Origin: Saururus chinensis
Lineage: Eukaryota; Streptophyta; Magnoliopsida; Piperales; Saururaceae
Direction: 5' to 3'
NCBI GenBank assembly: GCA_035235625.1
Contig: CP141149.1
Coordinates: 4,526,893-4,590,892 of the forward strand
DNA length: 64,000 nt
In this document: one piece after another, positions 16,525-61,369 of the stretch
Layout of the letters: each line of letters opens with the position of its first letter
Numbering within the stretch: position 1 is the first letter of the stretch
Notes under the pieces: model-generated
Told to the model about the DNA's origin: nothing
The model's database searches: none
The model's input: only the letters and a program-made list of their open reading frames with translations
Position numbers and translations under genes: made by a program

Positions 16525-17030
16525 ACTATAAGTAATGCTTTTATTATCGACGCAACAAAAAGAATCGCTAATAATTACTACTTGCGACACATAGATATGC
16601 ATCACAAAAAAATTAACTATTAGCAACGTTTTTTATTAAGTGTCCCTAATAGTAACTATTAGCGACGCTTAATAAAAAGTGTTGCTAATAAAACAACTAT
16701 TAGCGACGCTTCATTAAATAGTGTCACTAATGATTGCACTATTAGCGACATTTTATGAAACCATCACTAAAATTTATATATTTTAAATAGAAAATTAAAA
16801 CTATTAACGACGATATTTTCCAAGCGTCGTTAATAGTACTAATAATAGTGACACTTTTATAAAAACATCGCTAATAATTGCGCTAATAGCGACACTTCAA
16901 TAAATAAGTCACAAATAAAATAAATTTATTTTTTAAAAAATAATAATATTATTAGCAATGCTATATTAAAAGTGGGGCTAATATTACTACTATTAGCGAT
17001 GCTTTTAAGCAAGTGTTGCTAATCGGTTTT
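16525..17030. repeat. CACTA subterminal repeat array
   Basis: At least ten copies, in both orientations, of a 12-14 bp motif around TTAGCGACGCTT (examples near 16,660, 16,700 and 16,990). They are often paired as dyads around 10-15 bp of AT-rich DNA. In CACTA elements such repeats bind the TNPA-like regulator; that role is known for En/Spm and inferred here. Confidence 0.75.
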
Positions 17031-18625
17031 TATTTTGTTTTATTTTATATTTATTATTTCAATATAAAATAGGGTAGAGAAAGAAATATGACATAGAGAG
17101 AAGACAAAAGAGGAGAGAAAGAAAGAAGAGAGAGAGGAGGGAGACAATAGAGAGAGAGAGGAGAGGAGAGAGAGGGAGAGAGAAGAGAGAGTGGAGAGAG
17201 AGAGAGGAGAGAGAGTTAGCGGCTATAGAGAGTGTAGAGAGAGAGGAGAGGGAGATGAATATAAATTTTATTTTAAATTTTTTTTATAAAATATTATATT
17301 TTAAAAATAATATAAAAGATATAAAAAAATTATTAACGACACATAGAAATATGCATCACTAATACACTAGGTAGTAGCGACGCATACTTTTATGCATCGC
17401 TACTGCCTAGTATATGAGCGACACATATTTCTATGTGTCGCTGATAATTTTTTAAAATTTTTTTTAATATTTTTAAAATATAATTATAAAAATTAAAAAT
17501 TAAAATTAAAAGAGAGAGAAAGGAGGGGGCGAAAGAGAGAGAGTGAAGAGATAGAGACCAAGAAAGGTGATAGATAGAGAGGGAGAGATGAGAGAGAAAG
17601 AGGAGAGATGGTTGAGAGAGAGGGAGAGAGAAGATGAGAGAGAGAGTAAAGAGAGAAGGAGATAGAGAATGAGAGGCTAGAAAGAGAGAAGAGAGAGGGG
17701 CTAGAAAGAGAGTGTGTAGAGAGAGGGGAGAGGGAGAGTGAAGAGAGAAAGAGAGAGAAGAGAGATGGTAGATAAAGAGGGAGTGTGACACCCCGTGTTC
17801 CAATTACGCTTAACCTAAGAGGGTTAGGGGTAATTATATAGTTTTAATTAAATTTTTAGGGGTTTCAAAGGATGAAATTCTCGTATCTGGTTTAAACTCG
17901 AAGTAACGAGCGTAATGAATCAAAAAATACGCAAAACAGAGGTCGGGAACGAAAGTTACAATCTCAGGAAGCATGCCCCATGAGCGGGACTCACTTTAAA
18001 AGTGTAAAATAACCTACCCAAATGGAGTCTTAGTTTTGAATGGCTCATCAACACGTATGTTATAAAAATGACACGTATCATACACGCCTCAAATGCGTGT
18101 CACTTCTTGTTCCCTATTTAAACCCTAATCTTGGTTCGTTCTCTTACGGCTTTCCTTCATGTTCTCCCTTCAATTTCAGTTCTCCTCAAGTTCTTTGCAT
18201 GGAGGAGAAACTTGTTTCTGCCTTCAATTTTCGGCGTTTTTCAAATCTCGACGCCTTCAACTACCATTCCTCTATCCCTCCGGCCTCCTGCTGCTGAAAT
18301 CTGGATTGTAAGCTCCACACGCACCCCTTCAAGCTTGTTAATCCATTGCAAAAAGTTCCAAATTTTACCTCCCAACTGGGAGCCAAACCGTGGCTGCAGA
18401 AACCCGGCTAAGGTGGAAAGAGCTCTAGAAGTGTTTGAGAGGCATGCATCTGATCTTGAAGTCCATTTGGGGCAGCTGGATTTGGATTTTTTCGCTCATT
18501 TTGTGGTGAGAGTAATAGTCTATGAGCGAGCACCAGATTTCAGCTTTGCATTTATCACTTGGGTTAGGAAAATGCAAACCATTTTCATCCCATAACTTCA
18601 TGGTCAATAATTTGCTTCTAACTCC

Positions 18626-19415
18626 ATGCAGCTTGAAGAGTCTGTCAAGAGACTCCCAGAAACGCTTAATGGAGCAAGAGGGTCATGTCGTAGTTCTAGA
18701 AATTATAGCTTAATCAAGGTGCTCAATGATCTGAACCACTTTGATTTTGCCATTTTTGTGATAGAGGAGGCAACAAGGAGGACCTCTTACTACAACATTC
18801 TGATTGCAGTTAAATGCAAGATGGGCAGCTTTGAAGAAGCCCTGAAGTTGTTTGATGAAATGAGGAACTATGGTTGTGACCCAAATGTGAAATCCTATAA
18901 CTACTTATTGGGTAGTCTTTGTAAGAGAGGATGTATGGCTGAAGCCTGTGAATTTCTGGAAACAATGGAAGGTTTGGCTGTCTACCTGATGCAATTATAT
19001 TTGAAGTCTTTGCTGTTCATGCTTGTAGGCTAGGGAAGATTGAATATGCTTTAGATTTATTGTATCATATTCTATTGGAGGGAATTCAGCCTTGACTAAC
19101 GACCCATTCAGCTTTTATTAAGGGCTATTTTTGGTTTGGGAGGCTTGTACATGCATATGTCGTTGATATGAGTGAGTGGGATAGATACTCTAGGTGCATG
19201 AATTACAGTTCGCTTGCAAGACTTTTCTATAAATTAGGAAGGTTGGAGGAAGTGCAAAGGTTCTCGTAGAAATGATTGACAAAGGCCTTAAGCCCAATTT
19301 TCTTGTCTATGCCGACATCAAAAAGGATTTCTACATAAGGGATAAAGGAAATTTGGTTGTGGATTTGCCGGGAAGGTATTTGAAGTTCTGGCAAATCGGA
19401 AGTAATGAAAAATAA
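18626..19415 (+). pseudogene. Pentatricopeptide repeat (PPR) protein pseudogene fragment
   Basis: The plus strand encodes recognisable tandem PPR motifs of about 35 residues: SYYNILIAVKCKMGSFEEAL, then KLFDEMRNYGCDPNVKSYNY, LLGSLCKRGCMAEACEFLE, LPDAIIFEVFAVHACRLGK, IEYALDLLYHILLEGIQP. The tail KGLKPNFLVYADIKKD runs to TAA at 19,413-19,415. It is broken by a frameshift near 18,975, an in-frame TGA at 19,093-19,095 and at least one more shift between 19,130 and 19,270. PPR proteins bind organellar RNA in mitochondria or plastids. An upstream frame (18,131-18,595) is Ser/Pro-rich and might derive from a targeting region, but that is not certain. The copy sits inside the family C LTR in the same orientation as its TATA-like box, so it is probably captured or retroposed. 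Confidence 0.75.
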
Positions 19416-20028
19416 TTACTCTATGTTCACCAATACAAAGAATGGCAAAAGAACTCTCCAGAGCTAGAGGAGATTGTGCCGCCATCTCTGGACCTGATAG
19501 GGAGGACGCTATAAGAAAACAAGTAATATCGAATATTGCGACTTTTGGAACTACATGGGAGTAAGCATTTCTGACTTCCCGATTTTATTTTATTTATATG
19601 TATATATATCTAAATTAGTAATATTATATTAATTAAGGTGTATGATTATATGATTACATGTGTTACTTAAGATATATACTATGCTTTGATATGATGTATT
19701 TTGATATGCACTGATCTGATATGATCCAATCTACTCTTATGTATATTTTGTTCCGCTCTATAATAGAGTGGCGTGTGTGATTCTGCTAGGGTTTTGATTC
19801 TATTGATTTGCTGGCTTCTATTTGACTCAAATAATTTATAAGATTTCCATCTAACTCCGAATGATTATTTGAATATAAGCATATACATATTTTAACGTAT
19901 ATGATTTTGTAATGCTTGATGTAGAAATAGTCGTTAAGAAGAACTACGTTCGGATCCGATCGTATTGGAGTAATGTCAAAGATGCTATCCAATACGTACG
20001 TAGGCAACCAAAGGTACAATAGCGTTGG

Positions 20029-23000
20029 TGTCACGCGCCGGCGATGCCCGACCCGAGCCGAACCCGGTCCAATGGCCGATCAAGCACACGGGGGCGACGA
20101 AGTAAAATTGAGAAATGATTATAGCGGAAGACTTAATCCCTAACCACGGGCAATTAACAGAAATACGGAGTACGCACATTCCACTTTGAGCAAGAGTAAA
20201 TAAAATGGAAAGAAAGAGTTGTTTATCACAAAGTAAACAACAATCTCAAACCCACAAGCTTAATTTAAGTAAAGCCCACACCGGCTTAAAATAAGACTTA
20301 AGCAAACATAACTGTAACATGTGACATAAATCCAAAACAAAGAACCCTACACAAAGGTTCTAACATAAAGCATGAAACAAAAGAAGGTAAGTCACACAAC
20401 GATCTCCATGATCATATCCAAGCCACCTCCGACCTTTCCTCAAAGAGGAGATCCTGTCTAACTACGTGTCGCACCACGTAGCCCCAAATCAAAACACAAA
20501 AGAGGGGTGAGTTTAACAAACTCAGCAATGGTTTTAATATCACTATCAACATCGAAAGCACGATAGCATAGTAATAAGATCATTCAGATCAAAGATTTAC
20601 ATGGTGCATCATTTTCTGATCACACATACATATCACCTAACACAGCATTATAGTGCATAATTTAACCATGCATGGATATATCTCTAACATACATATTCTC
20701 ACATGCATTATATCAAATCAAATTACATGGATGTATCTCTAACATACATATTCCCACATGCATTATATCAAATCAAATTGCATGGATGTATCTCTAACAT
20801 ACATATTCCCACATGCATTATATCAAATCAAATTGCATGGATGTTCTCTAACATACATATTCCCACATGCATTATATCAAATCAAACTGCATGGATCTAT
20901 CTCTAACATACATATTCCCACATGTATTATATCATCACAACCTCCATCAAGGAGTAATCACACAATAATGTCACACAGACGGGAGCATAGACGAGGCCAC
21001 GAAGGCGTATCATGATCCAAAATTCTACACAATAATTAAAGAAAGATCGGGGTTGTCAATTCTTAATGTTGCTCGCCCTGGACGATCCTGGCCAAGGATG
21101 TCCCATTCTCACATAGAGAATCTAGAGCAGGAGTGTTCGCCCAGGGACATCTCCTGCGGAGGGAAGAGCCTGAGTTCTCACATAGAGAACCCTAGAACAC
21201 GTGGTAGCGGGGTGCACACAGCATACCACACTAGATTCTCAGGGTCCAGATGACACACATAATAATATTCTCACAATCCGCAAGACAAGTACACAACTCG
21301 TCCCCACATCATTCCATTTAACTAGACTCAACCCGGGGAGTGCACTCATTCCACACAGAAACTCAAATCAAAATATTTCCTTTCGGACCAATCAACTTGC
21401 GATTAATCCACGACCGATCAATTCAGCACACAATTCCATCACATTGCATCCAATCGGTCAAATTCGATTAATCACGATGAAGCCTCAATTGGAAATCCAT
21501 TTTCATGAATGCATGCAGCATGGTACATACGTGGGCAAAGCATACATGAATCCTAATCCATGATAAGTGCTCTCATCAGCCCCTAATGCATCATTGATAA
21601 TCACAATATCAAGCTTCAACATCATCATTTAACCCCACATGTGTGTGTACCTAGTAGAAGCATTTCACATAATGCATGCCAACATGCTTGAAATTAAACT
21701 CACTTTCACACTACACATGTGAATTTCCATCTAAATATGAATTCCAGCGGAAATCATAGGAGAAGAATTGTTGAAATCATATCTCAATTCAAAACTCAAC
21801 CACAAAGGCTAAATACATATAACATCACTCATTTCATCATTGAGTCATGGCATTCACCAACATCCACACACAACTAACCACAATCTATCATGACAAATCA
21901 GTCCAATAATAGGTTGTAGTCCTGCTGAAAGTATGCTTAACCAAAGGGAATCAACCATTCATAATTTCAAGATAACGATTCCAACATCATGCTACAAAAC
22001 ATAAGTCATTCCACAAATTTCCAAGCAATATCTCGATTCCATAACCTCAATAACATGCATTCCAGTAGCATAACATAGCTTAAAACACACCACATTTATA
22101 TGAAATTAGCAAGCTAAAGTAGAATCATCAAAATAAACATCATATGCACAACATACAAATTACTGTGTAGCCGATTAAATGCCCTTCAGGCCGTTCGATC
22201 GGTTACACCCAAAATTTGAAATTTACAGTTTCGTCGTTCGAACACCTAGCAGGCCGTTCTATCGGCTGAACTGGAAAAGTGTCGTTCCGGCTGTGTTGCC
22301 GTTCGAACGCCCTGCAGGGCCGATCGAACGCCAACAAGGTAGAACTGGTCATCTTCTTCCTTTCGCAAATCCAAACTGAAATATCATTGATAACACTTCA
22401 ACTCCACATCTAACACCCTAATCATCATCAAAAGTCCTTCTTAACTTCCAGAACATCAAACCATACCATAATAATGCAAAACCCTAAGAAATCGGGATTA
22501 AATAATTCTATTTTCTAATCTTACCATTAACACACTAAATCATGCAAACTCCATTCAAAATAAGCCAAAAATGAAGAGCTTTACCATGGATAAACAGAGA
22601 TTTCAAAAACCCATTACCTCAGCACTTGATTAAGCTCGGATTGAAGAGTCACCCTTCTTTAAATCCTTGAAAATACAATGAGTTTGAATTAAACACCATT
22701 AGAAATTGATTTACCCAAGAAATCCCTAATTAAATCTTAGATCTAGGGCTTGTTGGTAGTAAAAATCGAATTTTGAATGTTAGGGTTTGTAGTAAAACAC
22801 AAATCAGTAGTTTTCAATGTCCAAAAACGAATTGAAACAAGGGAAAAATGGTAGATTTGGAAGAAATTAAGAAGAAAGCTAAGGATTAGTGCTTAATTAG
22901 AGTAAGCTTACCTTAATCGGCTTCTAATTCAGGCCTAAATGGGGATTAGTCCAGCTTCCTTCCTTAGCCTATTCCCAAAAATAGAAATGGCTCTGGTTTG

Positions 23001-23422
23001 CCCTTTTATAGTAAGGGTTGGGGTATGCATGGGTAAGTTTTGGGGTGTAAATAGGAAAAGTAGGCTAAAAGTGGGTATTTTACAAATTTAAGCACTAATT
23101 AAGCCTAATAAAATTCTAAAAAATTTTGTATAACCTTAGGTAGATGTCTAGGTTCATTTGACACAAAAATAAAAATTTCGACGGTGGGGTCCACGGGGTC
23201 CCGTCAAAACCATAATTTTTGGAAAAATAGTAAAAATCCCAAAAAATCACAGTTATTTTGAAATCACTTAAAACCACTAATATTGAGGTTTATTTTGGTT
23301 AAAACCATCACAAACACTATTTATTTACGAAATCACCGAATAAGATCAGAAAACACGTTAATCTCACGATAACCAATAATTAAAGAAAACCAAAAACTGG
23401 TTTAGAGATGAGGGTCCTTACA
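20029..23422 (-). mobile_element. Solo LTR, family A, copy 1 (3,394 bp)
   Basis: Plus-strand ends are TGTCACGCGCCGGCG and GAGGGTCCTTACA. A perfect 5-bp duplication GTTGG flanks it (20,024-20,028 and 23,423-23,427). The sense strand is probably minus: CTATAAAAGGG, a good TATA box, lies on the minus strand at 23,001-23,011, with U3 to its right. It is closely related over its whole length to 49,241-52,664. No second LTR or internal domain adjoins it, so it looks like a solo LTR left by recombination. An intact duplication suggests fairly recent insertion. Confidence 0.85.
20672..20930. repeat. 55-bp tandem repeat inside LTR A copy 1
   Basis: About 4.5 units, phased on TATCTCTAACATACATATTC at 20,679, 20,734, 20,789, about 20,844 and 20,898. 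The open plus-strand frames over it (HALYQIKLHG repeats) are a by-product of the period. The same array has a 56-bp period in copy 2. Confidence 0.9.
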
Positions 23423-23645
23423 GTTGGCCCCATTGAAATTAGTTATAAAATTAGGTTTGTTCTAATTTACGTGCAATGGAACGCTATAGCTTCGTAGTTC
23501 ATAGAAGAACGTTATGACTCTCGCACTCAGAGTTCGTCGCTCTTGGTCGGTCTCGTTTTAATTTTTTTATTTTTTTAATATACTCCAAATTTTGTCTTCT
23601 GAATAATCCCCGGTCCGGGTTTGTTTTCCGGGTTGAGGTGTTACA

Positions 23646-24800
23646 GGGGGAGAGAGAGAGGATAGAGAGTGTCAAGAGAGATAGGGTAGAGAGAGTCAAG
23701 AGAGAGAGTGAGGAGAGAGAGAGGAGTGGATGAGAGAGAGAAACGGTAGAGAGAGTCAAGAAAGATAGGGTAGAGAGAGTGAGGAGAGAGAGAGAGGAGA
23801 GGATGAGAGATAGATGGTAGATAGATAGAAGAGAGGGTAGAGAGAGTGTGAAGAGAGATAGAGTAGAGAGAGTGAAGAGAGAGAGAGGAGAGAGAAAGAG
23901 AGGGTAGAGAGAGTGTGTGTGTAGAGAGAGGGTAGATAGAGTGAAGAGAGGGTGGAGAGAGACAAGAGAGAGTGAAGAGAGAGAGGAGATGATGAGAGAG
24001 AGGAGAGAAAAAGAGCGAGATGAAAGAGAGAGTGCATAGAGAGAGAGGGTAGAGAGAGCAAGAGAGAGAGAGGAAAGAGGAAAGAGAGGGGTGAAGAGAG
24101 GAGAGAAGAAAATATTTTTAAAATAATATTATGCTATTAGTTTTTTTAAAAAGAATTTGAGCTATTAGCGATGCTCGAAAGGAGGCGCCGCTAATAGTAT
24201 AAGTAATTGCAACACTAATTCTTAAGCATCGCAAATACATATGCTATTAGCGACGCTTGGAAGCGAGTGTCGGTAATAGTGTATGTAATTACGTCACTAA
24301 TAGTGTATGTGATTGTGACATTCTCCAGTCTCTTTAGCATCAAAAATAAGCATGCAATTAGCAATGCTCCTTACGAGTTCTCTTTAGCATCGGAAATAAG
24401 TATGCGATTAGTAATGCTCCTTACGAGTGTCGCTAACAGCCTTAGCTTTCTTTAAATAAAACTAAGGCTATTAGTAAAGCTCGTAAGTGAGCGTCACTAA
24501 TAGTATAAGTAATTGTGACACTAATACTTAAGTGTCGCAAATACTATTAACGACGCTCGCTTATGAGCATCGCTAATAGCCTTATTTTTTCCAAAAAAGT
24601 TTTCCTTTGCACACCTCTCTCTCCTCCCCTCTCTACCCTCTCCTCCCTCTCTCTCTACTGTCTTTCTATCTCTACCATCTCTCCTCTCTCTATCTCCTCC
24701 CTCTCTATCGTCCCTCTCTCTCTATCTATCTCTCTACCCTCTCTCCTCTCTCTCTGCCCCCTTCACCTTCCTGTTCCCCCCTCCTTCCCCTCCTCTGTTT
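23646..24800. repeat. (GA)n tract, GCGACGCT dyads and (CT)n tract of CACTA element 2
   Basis: Purine tract at 23,646-24,110, dyads such as TAGCGACGCTCG / CGAGCATCGCTAATAGC at 24,160-24,580, and a pyrimidine tract at 24,610-24,790. This matches the organisation left of the LTR insertion, so it is the continuation of the CACTA element. Frames here encode only Ser/Leu repeats and are not genes. Confidence 0.75.
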
Positions 24801-27930: not shown

Positions 27931-29929
27931 TCATAGATCCCCATTATGGTCCACGTGAGGCACTCCCAAGTTGGGCCTCGTTTCCTTATTTCATTCCTGA
28001 TATGGCTTGTTTTGAGGAATCTCTTGAAGGAGAGATTTCCCTAGAAGAACTTCTTCAGATAGAATGTGCTTGAATAGAAACTGGTCTAATAATAGAATGT
28101 TGACTAGAGTCACCCATACCCGCAACCCCATTAGGATATGGTCCATAATTAGAGGTGTTAACGAGCTAGCTGAGCCAAGTATTAGGTTTTTATGACTTGA
28201 ACTTGAATTGTTGAAGCTCGGCTCGAGTTTAACTCGAAGCTCAAATGAACTCGAAACTTTCAACTCAAGCTCAGCTCGAATTAAAAATTCAAAGCTTGGT
28301 TCGAGCTTTAGCTTAAACTTAAATAAGTGAATCATAAGCCTAAGTTCAAATTGGGCTCGAACTAAAAGAATAAAAATAATCTATATATAAATCTAAAGTA
28401 TATAAAGTATGATACATACTAATATACTTTTAGTATAAAATATTAATAAATATACTTCAACAAGTATTATGGCTACACCTTGAACATCTAATTATAATCA
28501 CTATGAAAGAAAAAAACAATGACAAATAAGTTTTAGTTACATATGCTCAAAAAATGCAACATTACTATTTTCCTTTCTTTATGTACATATAATCACTAAA
28601 AAAGATGCAAAAACTAAAAACTCATTTTGGCAACATTGCTATCTACTTCTTTGTGTCTTCTTTTCTTTATAAGCTTATTCTTTAGCCTTAGTGTGTCTAT
28701 AAAAAGTTCTAAAGTACATATAAAAAGATATACATTTTGTAAGATGAGGACAATCCCAGTGTCACTGTAACGCCCAAGATTTTTTATCCATTTTTCTTAA
28801 AACTCATAGAATTTTTTTTTTATACAATAAATTGGAGTCAAAATAACGAAATTAAAACATGTATAAACAGTTTATAATTTAAAACATCATACGGTTAAAC
28901 ATTGTACCGCCAAATCAAATATCCTAAGGCGCTACTCGAAAATACACGTATGACTAAATTACCATGATCATGGATTTTTAAATACAAATAACTCTCATGC
29001 GTCCCCGAGTACAAGTCCCATAAACAGTCTACTATCTGATCCAAATTAAAAGTCCAAAATATATAAATACTTAAATCTCACCAAATACATCAGATTATGG
29101 CACCAACTATACTCTCATCCAGTAAAAAATACTTGAGTCGAGAGGGAAACAATCCACCGCAGAAATGAGTGTCCAACTCCAAGAGCTCTTCAACACAACC
29201 TGCAAAAGCCTCCTGAACAATAGGGCTAAAAGAAGTAGGGTGAGTATCTTCATACTCAGTAGGAAAATACCCAATAGAGGAAATCCCAAATGGTGAACTT
29301 AATAAGTTCATAAATCATGCGTCATGCAACTCAACATGAGGCAAATAATGTATAACAAAATTATGAACATAAGCACATAAGCATGCATAACACACCACCA
29401 TATCAACTAACACAAACACCCTTAATCAGGGTCTTACAAACTTACTCGTACAATTGTATGCTAACTCATACAACTTGTACATACTTGTACGACCTAACTC
29501 GTATAATCTTACACTTACTCGTACGACCTTACTCGTACAGTCTTACCCTTACTGTCGAACTCATATTCAAACTCTTACAGTCGTGCTCAAACTCACACTA
29601 TTACAGTCGTACTCATCATCAATCTTACAGTCATGCACATACTCATCATCATACGCTTACTCAGAAATGTACAAACTCAGTCATATAGCCGTATACATAC
29701 TATCGACCACTGAAGTTTATTACAACTAATAAGCTCCAGCGTCGAAAAGGAAAAAAATGTCACTGGGGCATCACCTTAACCTCTGGGGAGTGACTAGACG
29801 CCATAGACTTTTTCAAAGGTAAGGTACACCTATGCTCATGGGGCACAGGATCAAACAGATAAGAGTAGATCCATGATACTACTTACCTGAGCGCGCAAAC
29901 ATACACCCACACAAGGGGTCATACAATTG

Positions 29930-30400
29930 CCCACACATAAGTGGTCTTCTAGTGCCATAGAATTGCCCACTATAATGAGTCTTATAGTGCCAGAGAATTG
30001 CCCACCATAATGGGTCTTATAGTGCCATAAAATTGCCCACCATAATGGGTCTTATAGTGCCATTGCCACTCTTGGGCAAAAAACATACAGTGCCACTTGG
30101 GCAAAAACGTACAATGTCACTCTTGGGCGGAAACATACAACGCTCTCAACAAAGCATCAAACATCTGGGCTTGTACAGCACACAGACCGAATCAAAAACA
30201 TACTTCACTCTCAACAGAGCATCAAACATCTGGGCTTCATACAGCACACAGACAAAGTCAGAAATGTACATCACTCTCAACAAAGCATCAAACGTCTGGG
30301 CTTATACAGCATGTAGACCAAATTAGAAACAACGTCGCTCTCAGTAGAGCATTAGACGTCTGGTGCTCTATACAGCACACAGACAATAATCTCGCAGGAT
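29930..30400. repeat. Tandem repeats in LTR B copy 1
   Basis: A ~35-bp unit (TTGCCCACCATAATGGGTCT, then TATAGTGCCA) repeats at 29,930-30,070. A ~60-bp unit (CTCTCAACAAAGCATCAAAC, then TCTGGGCTT...ACAGCACACAGAC) repeats about four times at 30,140-30,390. Both arrays have counterparts in copy 2 near 59,640-60,050. The overlapping open frames there are created by the repeats. Confidence 0.85.
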
Positions 30401-31429
30401 AACCACCATGGCAAGACATGAGAAATGCTTGGCCGACTCATTAGCGGCCAGCTCAAACACGGAACTTAATCCGTCAATCCCTCAGGTCTCAAACTCACAA
30501 CGCTATCATTAGCTGTGCTTATAATTCAAGTTTGAATTAAGTACATTATGTAGTACAATTATGCCAAACTAACTCACAGTCCTCGACTGATCAAACCGAA
30601 GCTTATCCCAATCGAAACCCTAGTTCATCGGGGCAGCAGACTTCACTTACCCGTCCAAGTCACACATAACTCACTGTACACAGATCCTTACATACGCATA
30701 CATCCTCTGACATCCACCTTATGATTAGACATCTTACTTACATCGTCAAACTGAGCTCCTCACGGCAGATCCCCGTTATCATCCTCTTACTTAATTCCTC
30801 ACTTATTATACTTACTTTTCACTTCAAAATTTGTACATTATGCTTGTACAATTATGCACGCTCTTACTGTCTAATAAACCCTCATAAGGCTCCAAGCCTA
30901 AGTCTTCTTACTTACCGAACTCCTGACGTATACTCCAAACCAAACTAGCCCATCTCAAATCCTCGCTCCTCAAACTTACCTTCTCTGTCTTCCATCATGT
31001 GCTTACACGTCCAAATCCACATCCAACTTCGTACCAAACCCTTACCACTTCTTACCATCCATCGCACATACCTCTGCCCACACACATAGTCCACATACAT
31101 AACTTACTCAAAATCGCTAGTCATCACTAGCACATACATCATACACATATGTATCACACTAACATATTCGCTAGCCATCACTAACGCATACATCATACAC
31201 ATATATAAACATGCTTATAACTCACATACATACATACATGTATCTCAATGTGGCATAATTCACTATCTTACATCATGCATACATGTCATGATTTAATATC
31301 CAAAGCATGAAATCATACAAGCCTAGCATGCGGCTACTCATTCAAAGCATGTTGTCATAAAATTACGAGTTCAAAGCTCCTCTACCTCGTAATCATGACC
31401 TTTGATGGCGAGCACACGACGGTGGCAAC

Positions 31430-33520
31430 GTTGGTGGCGGAGTCGGCGGTCAACACCATTGCCTAACTAAGAGAGCTGTTGTCCCAAGGTTTAGGAAGTG
31501 CTGGAACTACACACGGCCAAATGGGATGTCAAAATCAACGCAGCAAAATTTGCGATCCACGGCAGCACACTAGGGGCGGCCAGGACAAAGATCATGCCAA
31601 AGAGTGGCAGGTGCGACCGAAGGTCTAAGCGTACACACTAAAATTTGATCGGCGGTTGAAAAATACACAACCGATCACAAGACGTCAAAATCGGCCGTGG
31701 ACAGCACCCAACGGCGTCGATTTCACGTTCACAAGGACCCACATAAGGGCGGAGGGCGACACTAAAGAACGGAGGAGAGGTGGTGGAGGACTCCAATGTC
31801 AACTCTAGATGATGGCAAAGCCATCTAACAGTTGGGCGGTGTCAAAGCGGCACCAATACCCTAACCCACACACGTGGCTACTTGCACATGCTGCCAAAGG
31901 GAGGGGAGAGAGGGCTAGACGGCATCGGCCCAAAGCTCATAAGGGCGGTAGGGCCATACCCAAGGGTGGTGACCGACAAAGATGGCCTTTTTCATTGTCG
32001 TGTTGAGGTAGGTCGACTAGAGGCCATATGGTGTCCGATAGAGGTAGGACGGTAAGAGGGCAAAACATGGCGCTCTCTATAGCACGGTCAAACACACATC
32101 ATCGGTAGAGGGGGAACCTACCTCATGCCGAAGAAGAGGGGCGGTGCTGCACTAGGGCAGCCAGTCATCTCTAGGCTGAGACCCACCAAACTACAAGCGT
32201 CTAGAGGAGACGCTATAGTGGCCCAAAACGGGTGAAAAACCCTGGGGCACAAAGGAGCAGGGGTTACTGGTGGCTCTGGCCGACTCCATCGTGGCCCTAG
32301 CGGCTAGGAGGAGCTATCTCCAGCCAGAGGTGATGGCCAAAGTCAATAGCGACAGGCCGGACAAACAGCACAGTGAGGGACAGAGACCCTATTTTTCCCA
32401 GTGAGAGCACCCAAGTACGGGATGTAGATCTGGTTCCGACAAAGTGGAGGGAACGAACGCTCAACAGGGCCTGGAGGGGTGGCCCACTAGCATCACTCGG
32501 CCGAGGCAGAGCCAGACAAAGGTCCACATAGCCATGTTCGATGTCCGGCTGGCAATGGCAGTCGCAACGTCCAAAACGGACGTAACCCAAAAATAGGGGC
32601 TAGGGAGGGCGGAAGCAGAATAGTGCTAAGGTCGGCGAACCTAAGCTAGGACGGCGTCGGGGAGGCAGCCTGGCCGTCACCTGGCCATCATCAGGCCAAG
32701 GTCAGCCAGCGGCCTGCCCGCGGCGCTCCTCAGGCTCAGCCAGAACGCAAGGGGGCTTTGGGTGGTTCTGGCAAAAATCAGGGCCGGAATACAGCGGCGA
32801 AACAGGGCAGCGAGGGGAAAATGGGTGAGATGGCAGAGTAGAGGCCACTGGGGCCGGAAAAGGTGCCCATCACCGTCGCTGGACCAAGGTGGAGCTAGAC
32901 AGAGGTCCGGTCGACGGTGGCTCGCCACCGGCGGCAACTGTTGAACAAAAACAATGTGTGCGGTGAAAACAGGGTAGAGGGGGATCTGTGGACGGGGCGG
33001 CGGAACGGAGGCCCACCGGGCTGGGAGGGGTGGCCTCCCGCCTTCGCCGGCTCAGGGCGGAGCCGTGGCCAGCCGATCGGGCCTTGGTGGCCCACGGCGG
33101 TGGCGGCGGTACACAAGACAGTGAGAGAGGGAGAGAGAACTCACCAGAGGAAAAAGAACTCAAGGGCCGGCGGGACTGGCCAGTGCGGCGGCCTTGCCGT
33201 AGCCAGCCTAAGGCTAGCCGGATGGAGGCCGGGCGGAGCCACCGGCCACCGCCAGCGCCGTCCAAGTCATGAGACAGAGGGAGAGGCAGGATCGGGGAAA
33301 ACAGGGGAGAGGCGGGGCGGAGCGGCGGAGCGGTCGTGAGGCCTGGACGGTGGCCCCCCTGCCGTCGCACTGCCAGGGCAGAGCCGGAGCAGCAGCCCTG
33401 TGGCCCACCGGCGGCTGGGAGAGAGAGACGCCAGAGAAGGGGGGGAAGTACTGTTCCTCCTCTAGAACCATCTGGATCGGGCTCGGCCGAGCCCGAGCCC
33501 GAGCCCGATTTCCTCTTCTT
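31430..33520. other. GC-rich block of LTR B copy 1
   Basis: High GC with open frames on both strands (Arg/Gly/Pro-rich). The same block recurs inverted at 56,750-58,460. Diverged repeats of a GCCGGCGACGGTGG-like segment explain the many parallel frames, and none shows a known domain. It is treated as noncoding LTR sequence. Confidence 0.6.
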
Positions 33521-48921: not shown

Positions 48922-49240
48922 TTGGCAAAACTGAAGGGTACTGAAAATTTCAAACTTGTCATTAATTTTGATGATGCTAACTTTCAAGCCTCCTTGGCTA
49001 GACAAAAACATAAAGACAAAATGTTGATCCCTATGGACACCAAAATGGATGCACCCTGTAGCTCCAAGAAGAAGACTAAAGTGAAAGCTCCACTACCTAA
49101 GACCACTCACTCCCCTCACTTTGCCTATGACAAAGTTTTGAGCAGTGACAATGTGTTTACAAGGCTAATGTACATTAGTAATGAAGACTTTGTGAACCAA
49201 GCTCATCTAGAGCTTACGACCACTCATTCCCCTCACTTTG
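48922..49240 (+). pseudogene. Unassigned coding sequence with 39-residue repeats, segment 1
   Basis: An open plus-strand frame encodes a Lys-rich N-terminal part (TKMDAPCSSKKKTKVKAPLP). Repeats follow that start (T/K)TTHSPHF; the first full unit is 117 bp (49,101 to 49,217). The second unit is interrupted at 49,240 by LTR A copy 2. The same sequence resumes at 52,665, 56,181 and 61,370. It looks like part of a retroelement gag-side frame or a repetitive host gene. No domain is recognised. Confidence 0.45.
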
Positions 49241-52200
49241 TGTCACACCCCGGCGATGCCCGACCCGAGCCGAACCTGGTCCAAGGGCCAGTCAAGCGCG
49301 CAGGGGCGACAAAGGGAAATTGAGAAACAATTTAGCGAAAGACTTAACCCTAACCACGGGCGATTAACAGAATTACGGAGCACGTACAATCCTTTAAGCA
49401 AGAGTAAATAAAAGGAAAGAAAGAGAGTTGCTTATCACAAAGTAAACAACTAATCTCAAACCCACATGCTTAGTTAACTATAACCCACACCGGCTCAAAA
49501 TAAGTCTTAAGCAAACATAACTGTAAATGTGACATAAATCCAACAAAGAACCCTACACAAAGGTTCTAAACATAAGCATAAAACCAAAGAAGATAAGTCA
49601 CACAACGATCTCCATGATCACATCCAAGCCATCTCCGGCCTTTCCTCAAAGAGGAGATCCTGTCCGTCTGCGTGTCACACCACGTAGCCCCAAAACAAAA
49701 CACAAGAAAGAGGGGTGAGTTTAACAAACTCAGCAATGGTTTTTAATATCACTATCAACATCGAAAATACGATCGCATAGCAATATAATCATTCAGATCA
49801 CAGATTTACATGGTGCATCATTTTCTGTTCACACATACACATCACCTAAAACTGCATCATAGTGCATAATCCACATAATTTCATTCTCATCATAACATCC
49901 TACATGAACGTATCTCTAACATACATAATCCATCATGCATCATATCATAATCAACCTGCATGAATGTATCTCTAACATACATGTTCCATCATGCATCATA
50001 TCAAGATCAACCTGAATGGATGTATCTCTAACATACATATTCCCACATGCATCACATCATAATCAACCTGCATGGATGTATCTCTAACATACATATTCCC
50101 ACATGCATCACATCATAATCAACCTGCATGGATGTATCTCTAATATACATAATCCATCATGCATCATATCATAATCAACCTCCATCAAGGAGTAATCACA
50201 AATTTGGTATCACACAGACGGGACATAGACAAGGCCACGAAGGTGGGTCATGGTCCAAAATTCTACACAAGAATTCAAGAAAGATCAGGGTTGTCAATCC
50301 CTAATGTTGTTCGCCCTGGATGATCCTGGCCAAAGATGTCTCATTCTCACACAGAGAATCTAGAGCAGGGGTGTTCTCCCAGGGACATCTCCTGCGGAGG
50401 GAAGAGCCCGAGTTCTCACACAGAGAACCCTAGAACATGTGGTAGCGGGGTGCACATGACATACCACACTGGATTCTCAGGGTCCAGATGACACTCATAA
50501 TAACATTCTCACAAATCCGCAAGACAAGTACACAACTCATCCCTACATAGTTCCATTTAATTAGACTCAACCTGGGGAGTGCACTCGTTCCACACAGGAA
50601 CTCAAATCAAAACGTGTCCTTTCGGACCAATCAACTTTCGATTAATCCATGACCGATCAATCCGGCACACAATTTTACCACATTGCATCCAATTGGTCAA
50701 ATTCGATTAACCTCAATGAAGCCTCAATTGGAAATCCATTTTCATGATGTATGCAGCATGGTACATACGTGAGCAAGGCATACATGAATCCTAATTCATG
50801 ATAAGTGCTCTCATCAGCCCCTAATGCATCATTCATAATCACAATATCAAGCTTCAATATCATCATTTAACCCCCACATGTGTGTGTAACTAGTAGAAGC
50901 ATTTCACACAATGCATGTCAACATGCTTGAAATTAAACTCACTACTACATTACATATGTGAATTACCATCTAACATGAATTCCAGCGGAAATCATAGGAG
51001 AAAAATCATTGAAATCATAACTCAAATCAAAACTCAACCACAAAGGTTAAACACATATAAGATCATTCATTTCATCATTGAGTCATGGCATTCACCAACC
51101 TCCACACATCAACTAACCACATTTTATCATGACAAATCAGTCCAATAATAGGTTGTAGTTCTACTGAAAATATGTTTAACAATGAGGAACCAACCATTCA
51201 CAATTTCCAAGATGACGATTCCAACATCATGCCACAAAAAATAAGTCATTCCACAAATCTCTAAGCATATATCTCAACTCCATAACCTCAATAGCATGCC
51301 TTTCCAATAGCATAATATAGCTTAAAATACTCCACATCCATATGAAATTGGCAAGCTAAAGTGGAATCATCGAAATAAACATCATGCATTAGAACATCAA
51401 TTTGTTGTGTAGCCGTTCGAACGCCCTTTAGGCCGTTCGATCGGTTAAAAGCAAAAATTTAAAATTCACAGTTTGGCAGTTCGAACGCCTAGCAGGCCAT
51501 TCGATCGGCTGAATTGGAGAACTGTCGTTCCGACAGTGTTGCCGTTTGAACGCCTAGAAAGGCCGTTCGAACGCCAACAAGGCAGAACTGGTCATCTTCT
51601 TCCTTTCACAAATCCAAACCGAAACACCATTGATAACACTTTAAATCCACATCTAACACCCTAATCATCATCAAAAGTCCTTCATGACTTCCAGAAAGTT
51701 AAACCATACCATAATAATACAAAACCCTAAGAAATCGGGATTAAATATTTCCATTTTCTAATCATACCATTAACACTCCAAATCAAGTAATCTCCATTCG
51801 AAATAAGCCAAAAATCAAGAATTTTACCATGGATAAACTGAGATTTTGAAGACCCATTACCTTAGCACTTGATTAAGCTCGGTTTTGAGGGTCACCCTTC
51901 TTGAAAACCTTACAAACACATTGAGTTTGAATTAAACTCCAATCAAAATCGATTTACCAAAGAAATCCCTAATTAAAACTTAGATCTAGGGTTTGTTAAA
52001 CATAAAAATCGAATTTTAAACAATAGGGTTTGTAGTAAAACACAAATTAGTAGCTTTTGAGGTCTAAAAATGAATTGAAACATAGGGAAAATAGTAGATT
52101 TGGAAAAGATTAGGATGAAAGCTAGGGTTTAGTGCTTGATTAGAGTAGGCTTACCTTAATAGTCTTCTAATCCGGCCTAAGTGGGGATTAGGCCAGCTCT

Positions 52201-52664
52201 CCCTCCTTAGCCTATTCCCAAAAATGGAAATGGCTCAGGTTTTCCCTTATATAGTAAGGGTTGGGGTATGCATGGGTAAGTTATGGGGTGTAAATAGGAA
52301 AAGTAGGCTAAAAGTGGGTATTATGCAAATTTAAGCGCTAATTAAGCCTAATAAAATTTTTAAAATTTTTGCATGACCTTAAGTAGATGTCAAGGTTCAA
52401 TTGGCACAAAAATCAAAATTTTGTCGGTGGGGCCCACTGGGGTCCTACTAAAACCCTAATTTTTGGAAAAATAGTAAAAATTCAGAAAAATCCTAAAAAA
52501 TCATATTTGATTTAAAATCACTAATCTTAAAGTTGATTTTGGTTAAAACCATTATAAACACTATTTATTTATGAAATCGCTGAATAGATCAGAAAACACG
52601 TAAATCTCACGATAACCGACAATCAAAGAAAACCAAAACCGGTTTAGAGATGAGGGTCCTTACA
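49241..52664 (-). mobile_element. Solo LTR, family A, copy 2 (3,424 bp)
   Basis: Plus-strand ends are TGTCACACCCCGGCG and GAGGGTCCTTACA. A perfect 5-bp duplication CTTTG lies at 49,236-49,240 and 52,665-52,669. The empty site can be checked inside the window: the neighbouring repeat unit at 49,118-49,145 reads through CCCCTCACTTTGCCTATG without an insertion. A minus-strand TATA-like CTATATAAGG lies near 52,240-52,252. It is closely related to copy 1 over the full length. Confidence 0.9.
49905..50175. repeat. 56-bp tandem repeat inside LTR A copy 2
   Basis: Five units with exact 56-bp phase: TATCTCTAA(C/T)ATACAT begins at 49,911, 49,967, 50,023, 50,079 and 50,135. Copy 1 has the homologous array with a 55-bp period and slightly different units, so the array was amplified or homogenised separately in each copy. 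Confidence 0.92.
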
Positions 52665-56749: not shown

Positions 56750-58460
56750 GATAAAAGATCGGGCTCGGCCCGATCCAGAAAAATGTGAACAGTGCAACCG
56801 CCGCCCCCATTTCCGTCTGATCCTTGTGTCCGGCTGCCGCCAGCCGCCGGCAAGCCAGTGGGCCACCGCACGGGCTCCGTCCCGGCCGTGCGACGGTAGG
56901 AGAGCCGCTGTCCCGGCCCCCACGGCCGCGCCGCCTCCTCCCCTGGTGAGCCCCTTTTTCTCTGTGATTTGCGATTCCGCCGTTGTCGTAGGCCGGCAAG
57001 GACCGGCCGGCTGCCCACGGCTCCGCCATGGGCCGGCGACGGTGGGAGGACACTTCCCCCGGCCCCAGACGGCCCCAGCTCCGCCGTCCCGCTCCCTTTT
57101 TCTCTGCTGCCCCTGTTTGCCGCCCGTCTGTTTCACGCCGTTCCGTCTCCGCCACGGGCCGGCTCGGCCCGACCGGCCGGCCACGGCTCCGCCCTGGGCC
57201 GGCGACGGCGAGGAGCCCCTCCTCCCGGCCCGGTGGGCCTCGGCACCGCCGCCCCATCCTCTTTCCCCCTCTGTGCACTGTTCCGCCGACGGACTGTTTT
57301 GGGCAAACAGTGGCCGCCGACGGTGATCTGCGGCCAATTCGGCCTTCCCCCAGCCTCGCCTTGCTCCGGCGAAGGCAATGGACTACATCTCCATGCCCGA
57401 TTCAGCCGCCGCCCCCATGGCCGCTCCGCCCTTATGGGTTTTCCCCTGTCGTCCCTTATTTTTGGCCTACGTCCGTTTTGGACGTTGTGACTGACGTTAT
57501 AGTCGGACGCCGGATTTGTTTTAGCGGACCTTAGTTTGGCTCCGCCCCGACCCGGTGATGCCAATGGGCTACCCCTCTGGGTCTTGTTCAGCCTTGCGGC
57601 CCGTAGCCGCAGCTAGTCTGCCTTACCGGCATGTGTGCCGTTGACCCTTCTTGCCCATTTTACGCCGTCGGTACCGGACGGCCTCGGGCAAGAGATTGTA
57701 TGTCTTACCTTGACAGAAGGTGGACGAGTTCACCTGCTCAGGCCTTGGCCAGTGACGGCCTCATAGCCTTTGCTCGACCGTGAACCCTTGCTCTCTGCCG
57801 TGCGAGATGCACAGCTGCCCGCACCATCGGTTTTGGTTGTGGGTGGCGATCGGCGATGTTGCCGCTTTGATTGGCCACAGCTAAGGGCCTTAGCCCTGTT
57901 GGCTTTTGTGGGCTTTGGGTCGCCCCCTTTCAGCCCTCTCCCCCGCCCTTTGGGCCGCGTGTGCATGTGGCCACGCGTGTACTTCTGGGTTTAGGCGCCG
58001 CATTCGTGCCGCCTAACCATCGGTTGGCTTTGCCACCGAGTGGAGTTGACCACTAGAGCCGTCCTCCACCTCTCCTTTGATTCTCGAGCGTTGCCCCACG
58101 CTCTCCGCCCTTATGTGGGCCTTTGTTGACCGGAATCGTTGCCGTTGGGTGCTGTCCACGGCCGATTTCGACGTCTTTGTGGCCGGCTGAGCACGTTTTA
58201 GCCAGCGGCCGATCTTCAGTGTACACCATCGACTTCGGGTTGCACCGCCACTTAGGTTGGCACGATATTTCTCTCGGCCGCCCTAGGGTGCCACCGTGGA
58301 TCGCGGGTTTTGCCGCATTGATATCTGACACTCTGTTTGGCCGTGATAGTTCCAGCGCATCCTAAAATCCTCGGGACAGCAGCTCTCTCAGCCAGGCAAC
58401 GGTTTTGACCGCCAACTCCGTCGCCGACGCCGCCACCGTCGTGTGCTCGCCATCGAACGT
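56750..58460. other. GC-rich block of LTR B copy 2
   Basis: Strongly GC-rich, with long open frames on both strands (up to about 210 codons), all Pro/Arg/Gly/Ala-rich. About three diverged repeats of roughly 150 bp (core GGGCCGGCGACGG) at 56,850-57,280 keep several frames open at once. There are no recognised domains. In copy 1 different frames are open over the same block, which argues against coding. Confidence 0.6.
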
Positions 58461-58649
58461 CATGATTACGAGGTAGGGGAGCTTTGAACTCGTAAATTCA
58501 TGAAGCATGCTTTGAATGAGTAGCAGCATGCTAGGATTGTATGATTCCATGCTTGGATGTTAAGTAACGATCCGATTGCATGATGTGCGTGTAAGCATGA
58601 TTGGATGGTATGATTGATATGCATGAGATGTATGCATGTTTTATGGATG

Positions 58650-58880
58650 TGGACTATGTATGCGCTAGCGATGGCTAGCAAATATGTCAGTATGCTACGT
58701 ATGTGTTATGCATGTGCTAGTGATGGCTAGCGTGCATGTTTGAAGTATGTATGAATGTGTGTGCACGTGCTAGAGATGACTAGCGTGTACGTTTGATGTA
58801 TGCATGTGCTAGTGATGGCTAGCGTGCATGTTTGACGTGTGGATGCATGTGCTAGTGATGGCTAGCGTGCATGTTTGTAA
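58650..58880. repeat. GCTAGTGATGGCTAGC-type repeats in LTR B copy 2
   Basis: Irregularly spaced copies of GCTAG(C/T)GATGGCTAGC, a near palindrome, about five times among TGCATGT/GTATG-rich DNA. The counterpart in copy 1 is the CGCTAGTCATCACTAGC region near 31,110-31,190, with fewer copies. Confidence 0.7.
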
Positions 58881-59639
58881 GTTATGTATGTATGATCGTA
58901 TGTGTATGTTATACGTATGTGTGAGACATACGTGTGTATGATGGCATTTTGCCTATGCTTGGGATATGTGTAAGTGTTGTGGGCAGAAGTATGGGCGATG
59001 GACAGTAAGAGGTGACAGAAGCTCTGTCTGAATTTGGATACGGTTGTGTAAGCGTATGACAGAGGATATGAGTATGGCGGGCAAGGATTAGAATGGTTTG
59101 GTTTGGGGTGGATTGTATGTTGGGCGTTTGTCAGACAGTAAGAGTGTTCATAATTGTACAAGCATAACGTACAGATTATGAAGTGAAAAATAAGTATACT
59201 AAGTGAGATATAAGTAAGAGGGCGACAACTAGGTTGGCTCTGAGGAGCGTTATTTGAGGATGTCAATGTAAGAGGATTTGGCCATAAGATGGATGGCAAA
59301 GTGTAAGACTGTAAGGGTTTGTTGTACGATGAGTTTTGTCCATGATGTGGACGGGTAAGTGAAGTCTGCTGCCCTAACGAACTTGGGTTTCAGATCGGGC
59401 TCAGCTTCGGTTTGACCAGTTGAGGACTGTGAGTTTGTGTGGCATAATTGTACCGCATAATATACTTAATTCAAATTGGAATTATAAGCACAGCTAATGA
59501 TAGCGTTGTGAGTTTGAGACCTGAGGGTTCGACGGATTAAGTTCCGTGTTTGAGCTGGCCGCTGATGAGTTGGCCGAGCGTTTATCATGTCTTGCCATGG
59601 TGTTTATCCTGCGGGATGTTGTCTGTGTGCTATGTAGAG

Positions 59640-59870
59640 CACCGGACGTCTGATGCTCTGCTGAGAGCGACGTTGTTTCTGATTTGGTCTGCATGTTGTA
59701 TAAGCCCAGACGTTTGATGCTCTGTTGAGAGCGATGTACGTTTCTGAGTTTGTCTGCGTGCTGTATGAAGCCCAGACGTCTGATGCTCTGCTGAGAGCGA
59801 CGTATGTTTCTGATTTGGTCTGTGTGCTGTGTAAGCCCGTACGTTTGATGCCTGTTGAGAGCGTTGTATG
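59640..59870. repeat. ~65-bp tandem repeat in LTR B copy 2
   Basis: Four units phased on GACGT(C/T)TGATGCTCTG at 59,645, 59,709, 59,775 and 59,840, each followed by TTGAGAGCGA or CTGAGAGCGA and a TCTGATTTGGTCTG segment. Confidence 0.88.
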
Positions 59871-59942
59871 ATTCTGCCCAAGAGTGGCACTGTATGTTTC
59901 TGCCCAAGTGGCACTGTATGTTTTCTGCCCAAGAGTGGCAAT

Positions 59943-60050
59943 GGCACTATAAGACCCATTATGGTGGGCAATTCTCTGGCACTATAAGACCCATTATGGT
60001 GGGCGATTCTATGGCACTATAAGACCCATTATGGTGGGCAACTGTATGAC
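59943..60050. repeat. 35-bp tandem repeat in LTR B copy 2
   Basis: Three units at exact 35-bp spacing: GGCACTATAAGACCCATTAT at 59,943, 59,978 and 60,013, followed by GGTGGGCAATTCT. Confidence 0.9.
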
Positions 60051-60289
60051 CCCTTATGTGTGGGTGTTTATGTTTGCACGCTCAGGTAAGTAGTATCATG
60101 GATCTACTCTTACCTGTTTGATCCAGTGCCCCATGAGCATTGGTGTGCCTTACCTTTGGAAAAGTCCATGGCGTCTAGTCACTCCCCTGAGGTTAAGGTG
60201 TTGCCCCAGTGGCATTCTTTTCCATTTCGACGTTGGAGCTTATTAGTTGTAATGAGCTTCAATGGTCGTTGATATGTGTACGATTATGA

Positions 60290-60425
60290 GTGTGAGTACG
60301 ACTGTATGTGTATGAGCAGGACTGTAAGTGTATGAGTATGAGCAAGACTGTAAGCGTATGAGTATGAGTAAGACTGTAAGCGTATGAGTATGAGCACGAT
60401 TGTAAGAGTATGAGTACGATTGTGA
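60290..60425. repeat. 26-bp tandem repeat in LTR B copy 2
   Basis: GACTGTAAGCGTATGAGTAT units spaced about 26 bp from near 60,294 to 60,420. They create long Ser/Tyr/Thr-rich open frames on the minus strand that are not genes. Confidence 0.8.
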
Positions 60426-60616
60426 GAATATGGTTCTGAGTAAGACAGTAAGTATGATTTTGTGCAGACTGTACGAGTGAGGTCGTACGAGTCTGATTGT
60501 ACGAGTAAGGTCGTACAAGTATGCGTATGTTGTATGAGTATGCGTACGGTGGTACGAGTAAGTTTGTATGACCCTGGATAAGGGTGTTTGTGTAAGTTGT
60601 TTGGATAGTATGATTT

Positions 60617-60755
60617 TGGCACGATGGTGCCTTTGGTATGATTCTGGCACGATGGTGCCTTCGGTATGATTCTGGCACGATGATGCCTTGATATGATTTT
60701 GGCACGATGGTGCCTTCGGTATGTCTGTGGCACGATGGTGCCTTTGGTATGATCG
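60617..60755. repeat. 28-bp tandem hairpin array in LTR B copy 2
   Basis: Five units at 60,618, 60,646, 60,674, 60,701 and 60,729. Each contains GGCACGATGGTGCC, a 5-bp stem with a 4-base loop, joined by TT(C/T)GGTATGATTCT. The corresponding place in copy 1 (near 29,385-29,410) has no such array. Confidence 0.88.
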
Positions 60756-61369
60756 TATGCGTTTGAGCATGTTATGATTATTATGTTGACTGCTTCATGT
60801 TTGTGTTGCATGACGCATGATTTATGAACTTGTGAGTTCACCGTTTGGGGTTTCCCCTACTAGGTATTTTCCTACTGAGTATGAAAATACTCACCCTACT
60901 ACTTTTAGCCCCGTTGTACGGGAGGTTTTGCAGGTTGTGCGAAGAGCTCCTGGAGATGGACGCTCGTTTCAGCGGTGGATTGATTCCCGTTGACTCAGGT
61001 ATCTGCTTGACTCTCTACGAGTTTATTTATGCCACGATCTCCTGTATTGGGTGAGATGAGAACATAAGATGTTTATTCTGGACTTTCATTTGGATCAGTT
61101 AGTGGACTGTTATGGGACTTGTACTCAGGGATGCCCGGGAGAGTGATTTGTATTTAAAAGTCTATGATCATAGCAGAATTTATTCGTACGTGTGTTTTCG
61201 AGTAGCGCCTGAGGATATTTGATTTGGCAGTACGATGTTTAACCGTATGATGTTTTAAATTATAAACAGGTTTTGATTTTATCGTTTTGACTCCGATTTA
61301 TGGAAAGAAAAAAAAAATTTCTATGAGTTTTAAGAAAAAGGGATGAAAAATCTCGGGCGTTACAGATAG

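Follow-up and report, generated by a model that had tools for sequence, protein, structure and literature searches.

Probable capture of a host PPR gene inside the LTR of a non-autonomous retrotransposon family in Saururus chinensis

Coding sequences inside long terminal repeats (LTRs) are found in retroviruses, where nef of HIV and sag of MMTV are functional viral genes. In plants, the passages of PMC10853983 that deal with Cassandra describe non-autonomous retrotransposons with 5S rDNA inside the LTR. The capture of genes in elements with two LTRs is, according to the sections on this subject in several papers, well known (PMC13317346, PMC5664825, PMC3726574), and the PPR repeat domain is named there among the captured genes of rice and sorghum. 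Surveys of captured genes, e.g., the one in pepper (PMC5664825), are described as searching inside predicted two-LTR elements. Furthermore, BARE-2 and Veju have, in the account given by a review (PMC13317346), gained foreign sequence by template switching.

Here, a stretch of 64,000 nucleotides of Saururus chinensis DNA, which is part of contig 10 and is called the window below, was analysed and compared with the genome (516 Mb in 11 contigs). It contains a PPR pseudogene inside an LTR. Very probably, as far as can be read from the sequences, a non-autonomous LTR family captured a near-full-length sense copy of an intronless host PPR gene in its LTR, most likely once, and the passenger then travelled with the LTR.

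The outer LTR of the window and its passenger

The outer LTR, its passenger and the element nested in it have the following components.

17784 to 20028, forward strand: left part of the outer solo LTR, which carries the PPR passenger and starts with TGTGACACCCCG.
23428 to 23645, forward strand: right part of the outer LTR, with the final letters ...GGTGTTACA; it joins the left part in L010 and L012.
20029 to 23422, no strand assigned: nested LTR-like element of 3394 bp, TGTCAC...TTACA, with GTTGG at 20024-20028 and at 23423-23427 and a relative at 49237-52489.
18120 to 19453, forward strand: PPR pseudogene, recognised by alignment to the intact gene L013 and by Pfam PPR.
18115 to 18122, forward strand: TATA-like box TATTTAAA, read from the sequence, where LTR and PPR meet on the left in the derived copies.
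19454 to 19458, forward strand: right PPR/LTR junction, GGCAAAAGAA/CTCTCCAGAGC, the same in L009-L012, L015, L016 and L017 when substitutions are allowed.

When the pieces 17784-20028 and 23427-23645 were searched separately, they abutted at a single point in two other PPR-bearing LTRs, L010 and L012. Since what separates them in the window is a nested insert between two GTTGG sequences, 17784-23645 represents one LTR of ~2.46 kb. The first-pass annotation had treated the two ends as one element, and the opposite idea, that positions 17,784 and 23,645 are the ends of two unrelated elements, was ruled out by the same abutting parts and GTTGG-flanked insert of 3394 bp. Judged by this arrangement, the nested element is a later insertion into the outer LTR. 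It is related to the LTR-like element at 49237-52489; both are ~3.3-3.4 kb in length, are 84-95% identical by blocks and contain 54-56-bp tandem repeats. Elsewhere in the window, inverted-repeat blocks at 28865-33106 and 57143-61272, which are 80-94% complementary and lie 24-32 kb apart, are apparently two copies of another element in opposite orientation.

The outer LTR has TG...CA termini (TGTGACACC...TGTTACA in the window), which are similar in its relatives, but L010 starts with TA. Its left 270 bp correspond to the LTR starts of six other PPR-bearing LTRs and of ten fetched LTRs without PPR. The sequences that flank it in the window, GGGAG (17779-17783) and GGGGG (23646-23650), agree in 4 of 5 bases within purine-rich surroundings and are only suggestive of a target duplication. 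GA-rich simple-sequence tracts enclose the LTR (17000-17780 and 23650-24700), a 121-nt inverted repeat is located nearby (17266-17511), and L012 lies in a similar context of GA-rich simple sequence. Rfam families, 5S rDNA included, gave no match in positions 17700-23700 of the window up to E=1.

The PPR copy in the window spans the host coding sequence from about codon 4-5 to ~38 nt beyond the stop codon and is without the start codon. An open reading frame within it (18626-19033) matches PPR_2 of Pfam with E=1.7e-20, and the homology to L013 over 18120-19453 agrees with the extent of 18,1xx-19,4xx given earlier for a PPR pseudogene inside the LTR, on its strand and to the right of a TATA-like box. 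This box, which had been placed near the left end of the LTR, is indeed present there as TATTTAAA at 18115-18122 and overlaps the first bases of the PPR homology. Thus, PPR copy and LTR have the same orientation, and the former lies between the box and the conserved 3' part of the LTR, with ordinary LTR homology starting again at ~19457, to the right of the PPR sequence. In the other derived copies, the box is found at the same place, with substitutions in L010, L011, L015 and L016.

PPR loci, the donor gene and ordinary LTRs

A search of the genome with positions 18200-19420 of the window yielded 19 matches from 13 candidates, all of which were scored, at 11 loci. With 2001 bases of the donor locus as the query, at least 54 matches were obtained from the best 40 of 45 candidates; the PPR part detected the same 11 loci, and the remaining matches were short and confined to query bases 1-146, which precede the gene. 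Of the 11 loci, one is an intact gene (L013), seven are LTRs in which both junctions are present, one (L017) has the right junction, and two are fragments. In the seven LTRs (the window, L009, L010, L011, L012, L015 and L016), here called the derived copies, the left part, the PPR sequence and the 3' part follow each other on one strand.

L013, which is located on contig 4, contains an open PPR frame of 478 aa and is intronless over the captured stretch. In the 10 kb fetched at this locus, no LTR flanks were found; the only matches to LTR parts there cover 34 bp of the gene's own sequence. The copies are 88-90% identical to L013 in their PPR sequence and up to 95.6% identical to each other. 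When a query of 135 residues was compared with other PPR genes, the best match showed 48% over 60 residues and the highest value was 52% over 46 residues among the best 150 of 1334. Because the other PPR genes listed are only distantly similar, the donor is expected to be L013 or a close lost relative, and L013 is the probable donor gene.

L017 has the same right junction as the seven derived copies and continues from there to the LTR end. On its left side, it contains the native 5' UTR of the gene, which is preceded by a short, AT-rich stretch of ordinary LTR (best match 38 bp, 92%); in 8 of 10 LTRs, this stretch gave matches of 31-46 bp, with 83-92% identity, to LTR positions 337-384. L017 apparently represents an earlier state than the derived copies. 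L018 also keeps native 5' UTR sequence; both L018 and L014 are pieces of PPR sequence at which LTR flanks are not recognisable. LTR sequence that is found in L017 and in ordinary LTRs is missing from all seven derived copies. The left flank in these seven is a 140-bp stretch that ends in the TATA-like box; it is located at L010:5238-5377 on the minus strand and, partly lost, at about 18060-18119 in the window. It was not found outside PPR-bearing LTRs: its 8 matches lie at 7 loci, which are all seven derived LTRs (7/7 candidates scored). In L011 (contig 2, 40321507-40321872), the left flank segment that adjoins the PPR sequence is tandemly duplicated.

Ordinary LTRs of the family were recovered in the first search, which scored the best 40 of 3528 candidates and gave at least 53 matches, 29 of them (by hand count) at loci that matched only the first 275 bases of the LTR. 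The ten best of these loci, L019-L028, were fetched; all ten contain the left part and 3'-part sequence, and PPR is present in none. To the question, raised earlier, whether other LTRs of family C carry PPR at the same position, the answer is yes for six further LTRs and no for the ten fetched ordinary ones, so that PPR marks a small subfamily and not family C at large. The middle of the ordinary LTRs consists of a GC-rich stretch and a tandem array, for which a period of 56 bp was reported by TRF in 10/10; in the LTR of L034, one TRF run did not report the 56-bp array. PPR takes the place of ~0.8 kb of ordinary LTR, from LTR position ~385 to the conserved 3' part.

Three relatives without PPR, L034, L035 and L036, have two LTRs and an internal region of ~1.8-3.2 kb, with the reservation that the boundary of L035 is unsure, since its internal region matches only LTR left parts. 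None of these three PPR-less relatives contains a sense open reading frame of at least 120 aa, the length by which they were judged. A PBS-like sequence, TGGTATCGGAGC, which we take to be a match to tRNA-Met, follows L028, and a purine tract precedes L020, L024 and L027, all of which are PPR-less. On the basis of two-LTR relatives without long open reading frames, the PBS-like site and the purine tracts, the family is taken as one of non-autonomous LTR retrotransposons. PBS, PPT and paired LTRs were seen in PPR-less relatives only and in no PPR-bearing copy, and the 8 kb that follow the first locus of L028 contained no second LTR. As the genome searches found no PPR-bearing element with two LTRs, the duplication of the passenger at both ends of an element is only deduced from the retrotransposon cycle.

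The stretches taken as internal beside L028, L020, L024 and L027 match PPR-bearing loci over up to 635 bp; the one adjoining L028 matches L016 over 635 bp (68%) and L014 over 395 bp (73%). This stretch was considered as the internal region of the PPR element and rejected, because it has no match in L034-L036 and no purine tract precedes the LTR of L016. It is taken for a separate dispersed repeat (L028:9312-9888, L016:1083-1699 and, oriented, L014 1126-1512; 68-73% identical), which is positioned downstream of one ordinary LTR (L028) and upstream of two PPR copies. The internal regions of L034 and L036 produced one match to the PPR-bearing loci, i.e., 87 bp in L014.

Capture, spread and passage through RNA

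Substitutions aside, the seven derived LTRs have both junctions in common; the left one reads ...CTATTTAAACCCTA and the right one GGGCAAAAGAA/CTCTCCAGAGCTAGAGG. A tree built from the 3' part of the LTR, in which nine PPR-less sequences were included, groups all eight PPR-bearing LTRs in a clade (0.993) and the seven without L017 in another (0.991), with L017 as the sister of these seven. LTR alignments between PPR-bearing loci stop at the LTR, and the adjoining flanks are unmatched; several additional matches (150-1044 bp) at other places in the fetched sequences look like dispersed repeats. When flanks of 1.5 kb were compared, only those of L012 and the window, besides the two flanks of L012 itself, matched (66-83%, repeat-rich). 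Both LTR termini are kept in only three PPR-bearing LTRs, i.e., the window, L010 and L012, the others being without one end. L010 has a perfect 5-bp duplication, CTAAC, on both sides, and the flanks of L012, TGTGA and TGCAC, show no matching duplication. Together, the common junctions, the tree of the 3' part and the different insertion sites point to a single capture inside the LTR, followed by spread to several chromosomes by retrotransposition.

Two other explanations for this distribution can be considered. The first-pass annotation named as the alternative to capture that a PPR transcript was retroposed into an existing solo LTR, and to this simple event at one site we give hardly any credence. 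Although an intronless PPR sequence within an LTR and the ordinary LTRs fetched without PPR would be consistent with it, seven LTRs at seven sites have the same junctions. Neither a poly(A) tail nor the short target duplication that had been envisaged was found directly around the PPR sequence, the LTR being joined directly on both sides as in all seven copies, and the ordinary LTR sequence at that place is missing, not duplicated. The capture within the LTR proposed in that annotation is supported by the same left and right junctions at seven sites; expression of the passenger from the LTR promoter, also raised there, is conceivable. Alternatively, the copies might have been spread by segmental or ectopic duplication of DNA instead of by LTR retrotransposition. 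The lack of a two-LTR PPR element among the loci found, the restriction of a perfect target duplication to L010 and the location of L012 and the window in similar purine-rich repeats would fit such a spread; yet, it is very unlikely, as the LTR alignments end before the adjoining flanks, CTAAC is found on both sides of L010, and the exact GT-AG excisions in different copies, discussed below, would imply RNA intermediates.

In the left ~270 bp, the PPR-bearing LTRs do not form a clade. Here, the window is 83-86% identical to L019-L028, against 75-79% for the remaining PPR-bearing LTRs, a comparison that is biased because L019-L028 were picked as the best matches to the left part of the window; LTR recombination is possibly also behind this pattern. 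In L015, common indels make the PPR copy look like a composite of two lineages of PPR-bearing LTRs, and trees of the gene halves weakly support it as a recombinant. Possibly, this mosaic arose by recombination between co-packaged RNAs.

The start codon is absent from every one of the seven derived copies, and all have a 1-nt frameshift in common, which indicates that the passenger had become defective before their spread. On these two grounds, a coding role was rejected for the derived copies. The differences between copies are spread about equally over the codon positions; to judge from its sequence, the passenger is decaying neutrally and is not kept for its protein.

Nine internal deletions relative to L013 were tested; in addition, L014, whose 5' end is broken, has a gap of 183 nt there. 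Of the nine, the three that exceed 41 nt, i.e., of 103, 97 and 91 nt, can all be placed as exact GT-AG excisions, and the six others, of 10-41 nt, are not GT-AG. Two of the sites concerned have the following positions in the window.

18614 to 18616, forward strand: point where 103 nt of the host coding sequence are missing relative to L013, as an exact GT-AG excision.
18719 to 18809, forward strand: 91-nt GT...AG segment that is kept in the window and is precisely absent in L014, L015 and L016.

With slashes marking the ends of the missing segments, the loss of 103 nt is found in the window, L009-L012 and L015 (TTTGG/GTCTG...TATAG/TTC), that of 97 nt, across the end of the coding sequence, in L017 (AAGGG/GTAAAG...TACAG/AGA), and that of 91 nt in L014, L015 and L016 (CAAG/GTGCTC...TGCAG/CTA). 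L015 has both the 103- and the 91-nt loss. No deletion of the three has a length divisible by three, and in L013 the 103- and 91-nt segments are part of the open frame. As L017 keeps these two segments, both were lost after the capture. The simplest reading suggested by the excisions is that they are cryptic introns, which were spliced from sense-strand RNA of the element in separate copying rounds. They might instead be ordinary deletions with chance ends, silent on passage through RNA. The six shorter deletions without GT-AG ends and the possibility that L014, L015 and L016 inherited the 91-nt loss from a single event would be compatible with this, but it is highly improbable, given that 3/3 tested deletions of more than 41 nt fit, while a random deletion in the gene can be placed as GT-AG by chance in 23/2600 cases (91 or 103 nt) or 2/1300 (97 nt). 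Such GT-AG losses offer a sign of RNA passage for an intronless gene that is readable from sequence only.

As the mechanism of the capture itself, we infer, by preference, template switching. Reverse transcriptase on the element RNA would go back through U5 and R and, perhaps near the start of R, switch onto PPR mRNA at ~38 nt beyond its stop codon. After copying this mRNA to near its 5' end, the enzyme would switch back into U3 at ~385 bp from the LTR start, by which the repeat array would be skipped. The resulting order would be U3, sense PPR and LTR 3' part, as observed. Because reverse transcription regenerates both LTRs, the passenger would be carried as a part of the LTR to new sites, and recombination between LTRs would leave solo LTRs behind.

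Since the donor is intronless over the captured stretch, capture from RNA and capture from DNA look alike at the first step. In the latter case, recombination or the repair of a double-strand break would have placed a genomic PPR gene or pseudogene in the LTR, and retrotransposition would have accounted only for the later spread. This is a serious, if rather unlikely, possibility. It accords with the host gene having no intron in the captured stretch, with the native 5' UTR kept in L017 and L018, and with the 103- and 91-nt segments kept in L017, which were hence not spliced out at capture. It accounts less readily for a stretch that runs from ~30-45 nt upstream of the ATG to ~38 nt past the stop codon, close to the extent of the mRNA, and for its sense orientation, although both may be due to chance. 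Template switching, the preferred mechanism, can be extended to a more elaborate scenario, which is offered tentatively and seems doubtful as a whole: a misdirected first strand transfer onto host mRNA may have brought an almost whole host coding sequence into the LTR where U3 borders on R, after which the LTR would have acquired a new flank on its left, provided with a TATA-like box and present in this genome only in PPR-bearing LTRs. This would have created a new class of LTR promoter and leader, spliced at hidden introns in separate copying rounds.

Comparison with known systems

Each new insertion adds two copies of a passenger that is located inside an LTR, and solo LTRs preserve it after the rest of the element is gone. 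As surveys look inside two-LTR elements, passengers of solo LTRs would be missed, and some scattered plant pseudogenes may originate in this way. In the present case, the succession of events can be read because an intermediate, L017, exists alongside the derived LTRs. In addition, PPR sequence that lies in LTRs in sense orientation might give rise to putative small RNAs directed at the donor gene.

Like nef of HIV and sag of MMTV, the passenger is a coding sequence located in an LTR; unlike these, it is a broken host gene. As far as the relevant passages of PMC10853983 describe it, Cassandra is the nearest precedent for a host gene inside an LTR. In both cases, host-derived sequence is located within the LTR, not at its ends, of a non-autonomous plant element; however, whereas Cassandra contains a short conserved 5S promoter sequence, the passenger here is a protein-coding sequence of 1.3 kb that appears to decay neutrally (PMC10853983). 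The likeness to BARE-2 and Veju, in the account of the review, is that template-switched foreign sequence, which in BARE-2 is located within the LTR, founded a new subfamily; in contrast to their donors, which were another retrotransposon or unknown DNA, the donor here would be a known host gene (PMC13317346). With gene capture by LTR retrotransposons, as it is presented in the sections consulted, the family shares that a host coding sequence was copied into an often non-autonomous element and multiplied with it. Unlike the genes in the surveys, which are inside predicted two-LTR elements, this gene lies within the LTR itself (PMC13317346, PMC5664825, PMC3726574), where two copies per element, and persistence in solo LTRs, would be expected. 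In the open-access literature searched, as judged by titles, abstract openings and passages, there was no report of plant LTRs that contain a protein-coding gene of the host. Thus, while gene capture by LTR retrotransposons is known, we call its occurrence within the LTR, an unusual place for a captured gene, a new variation on it.
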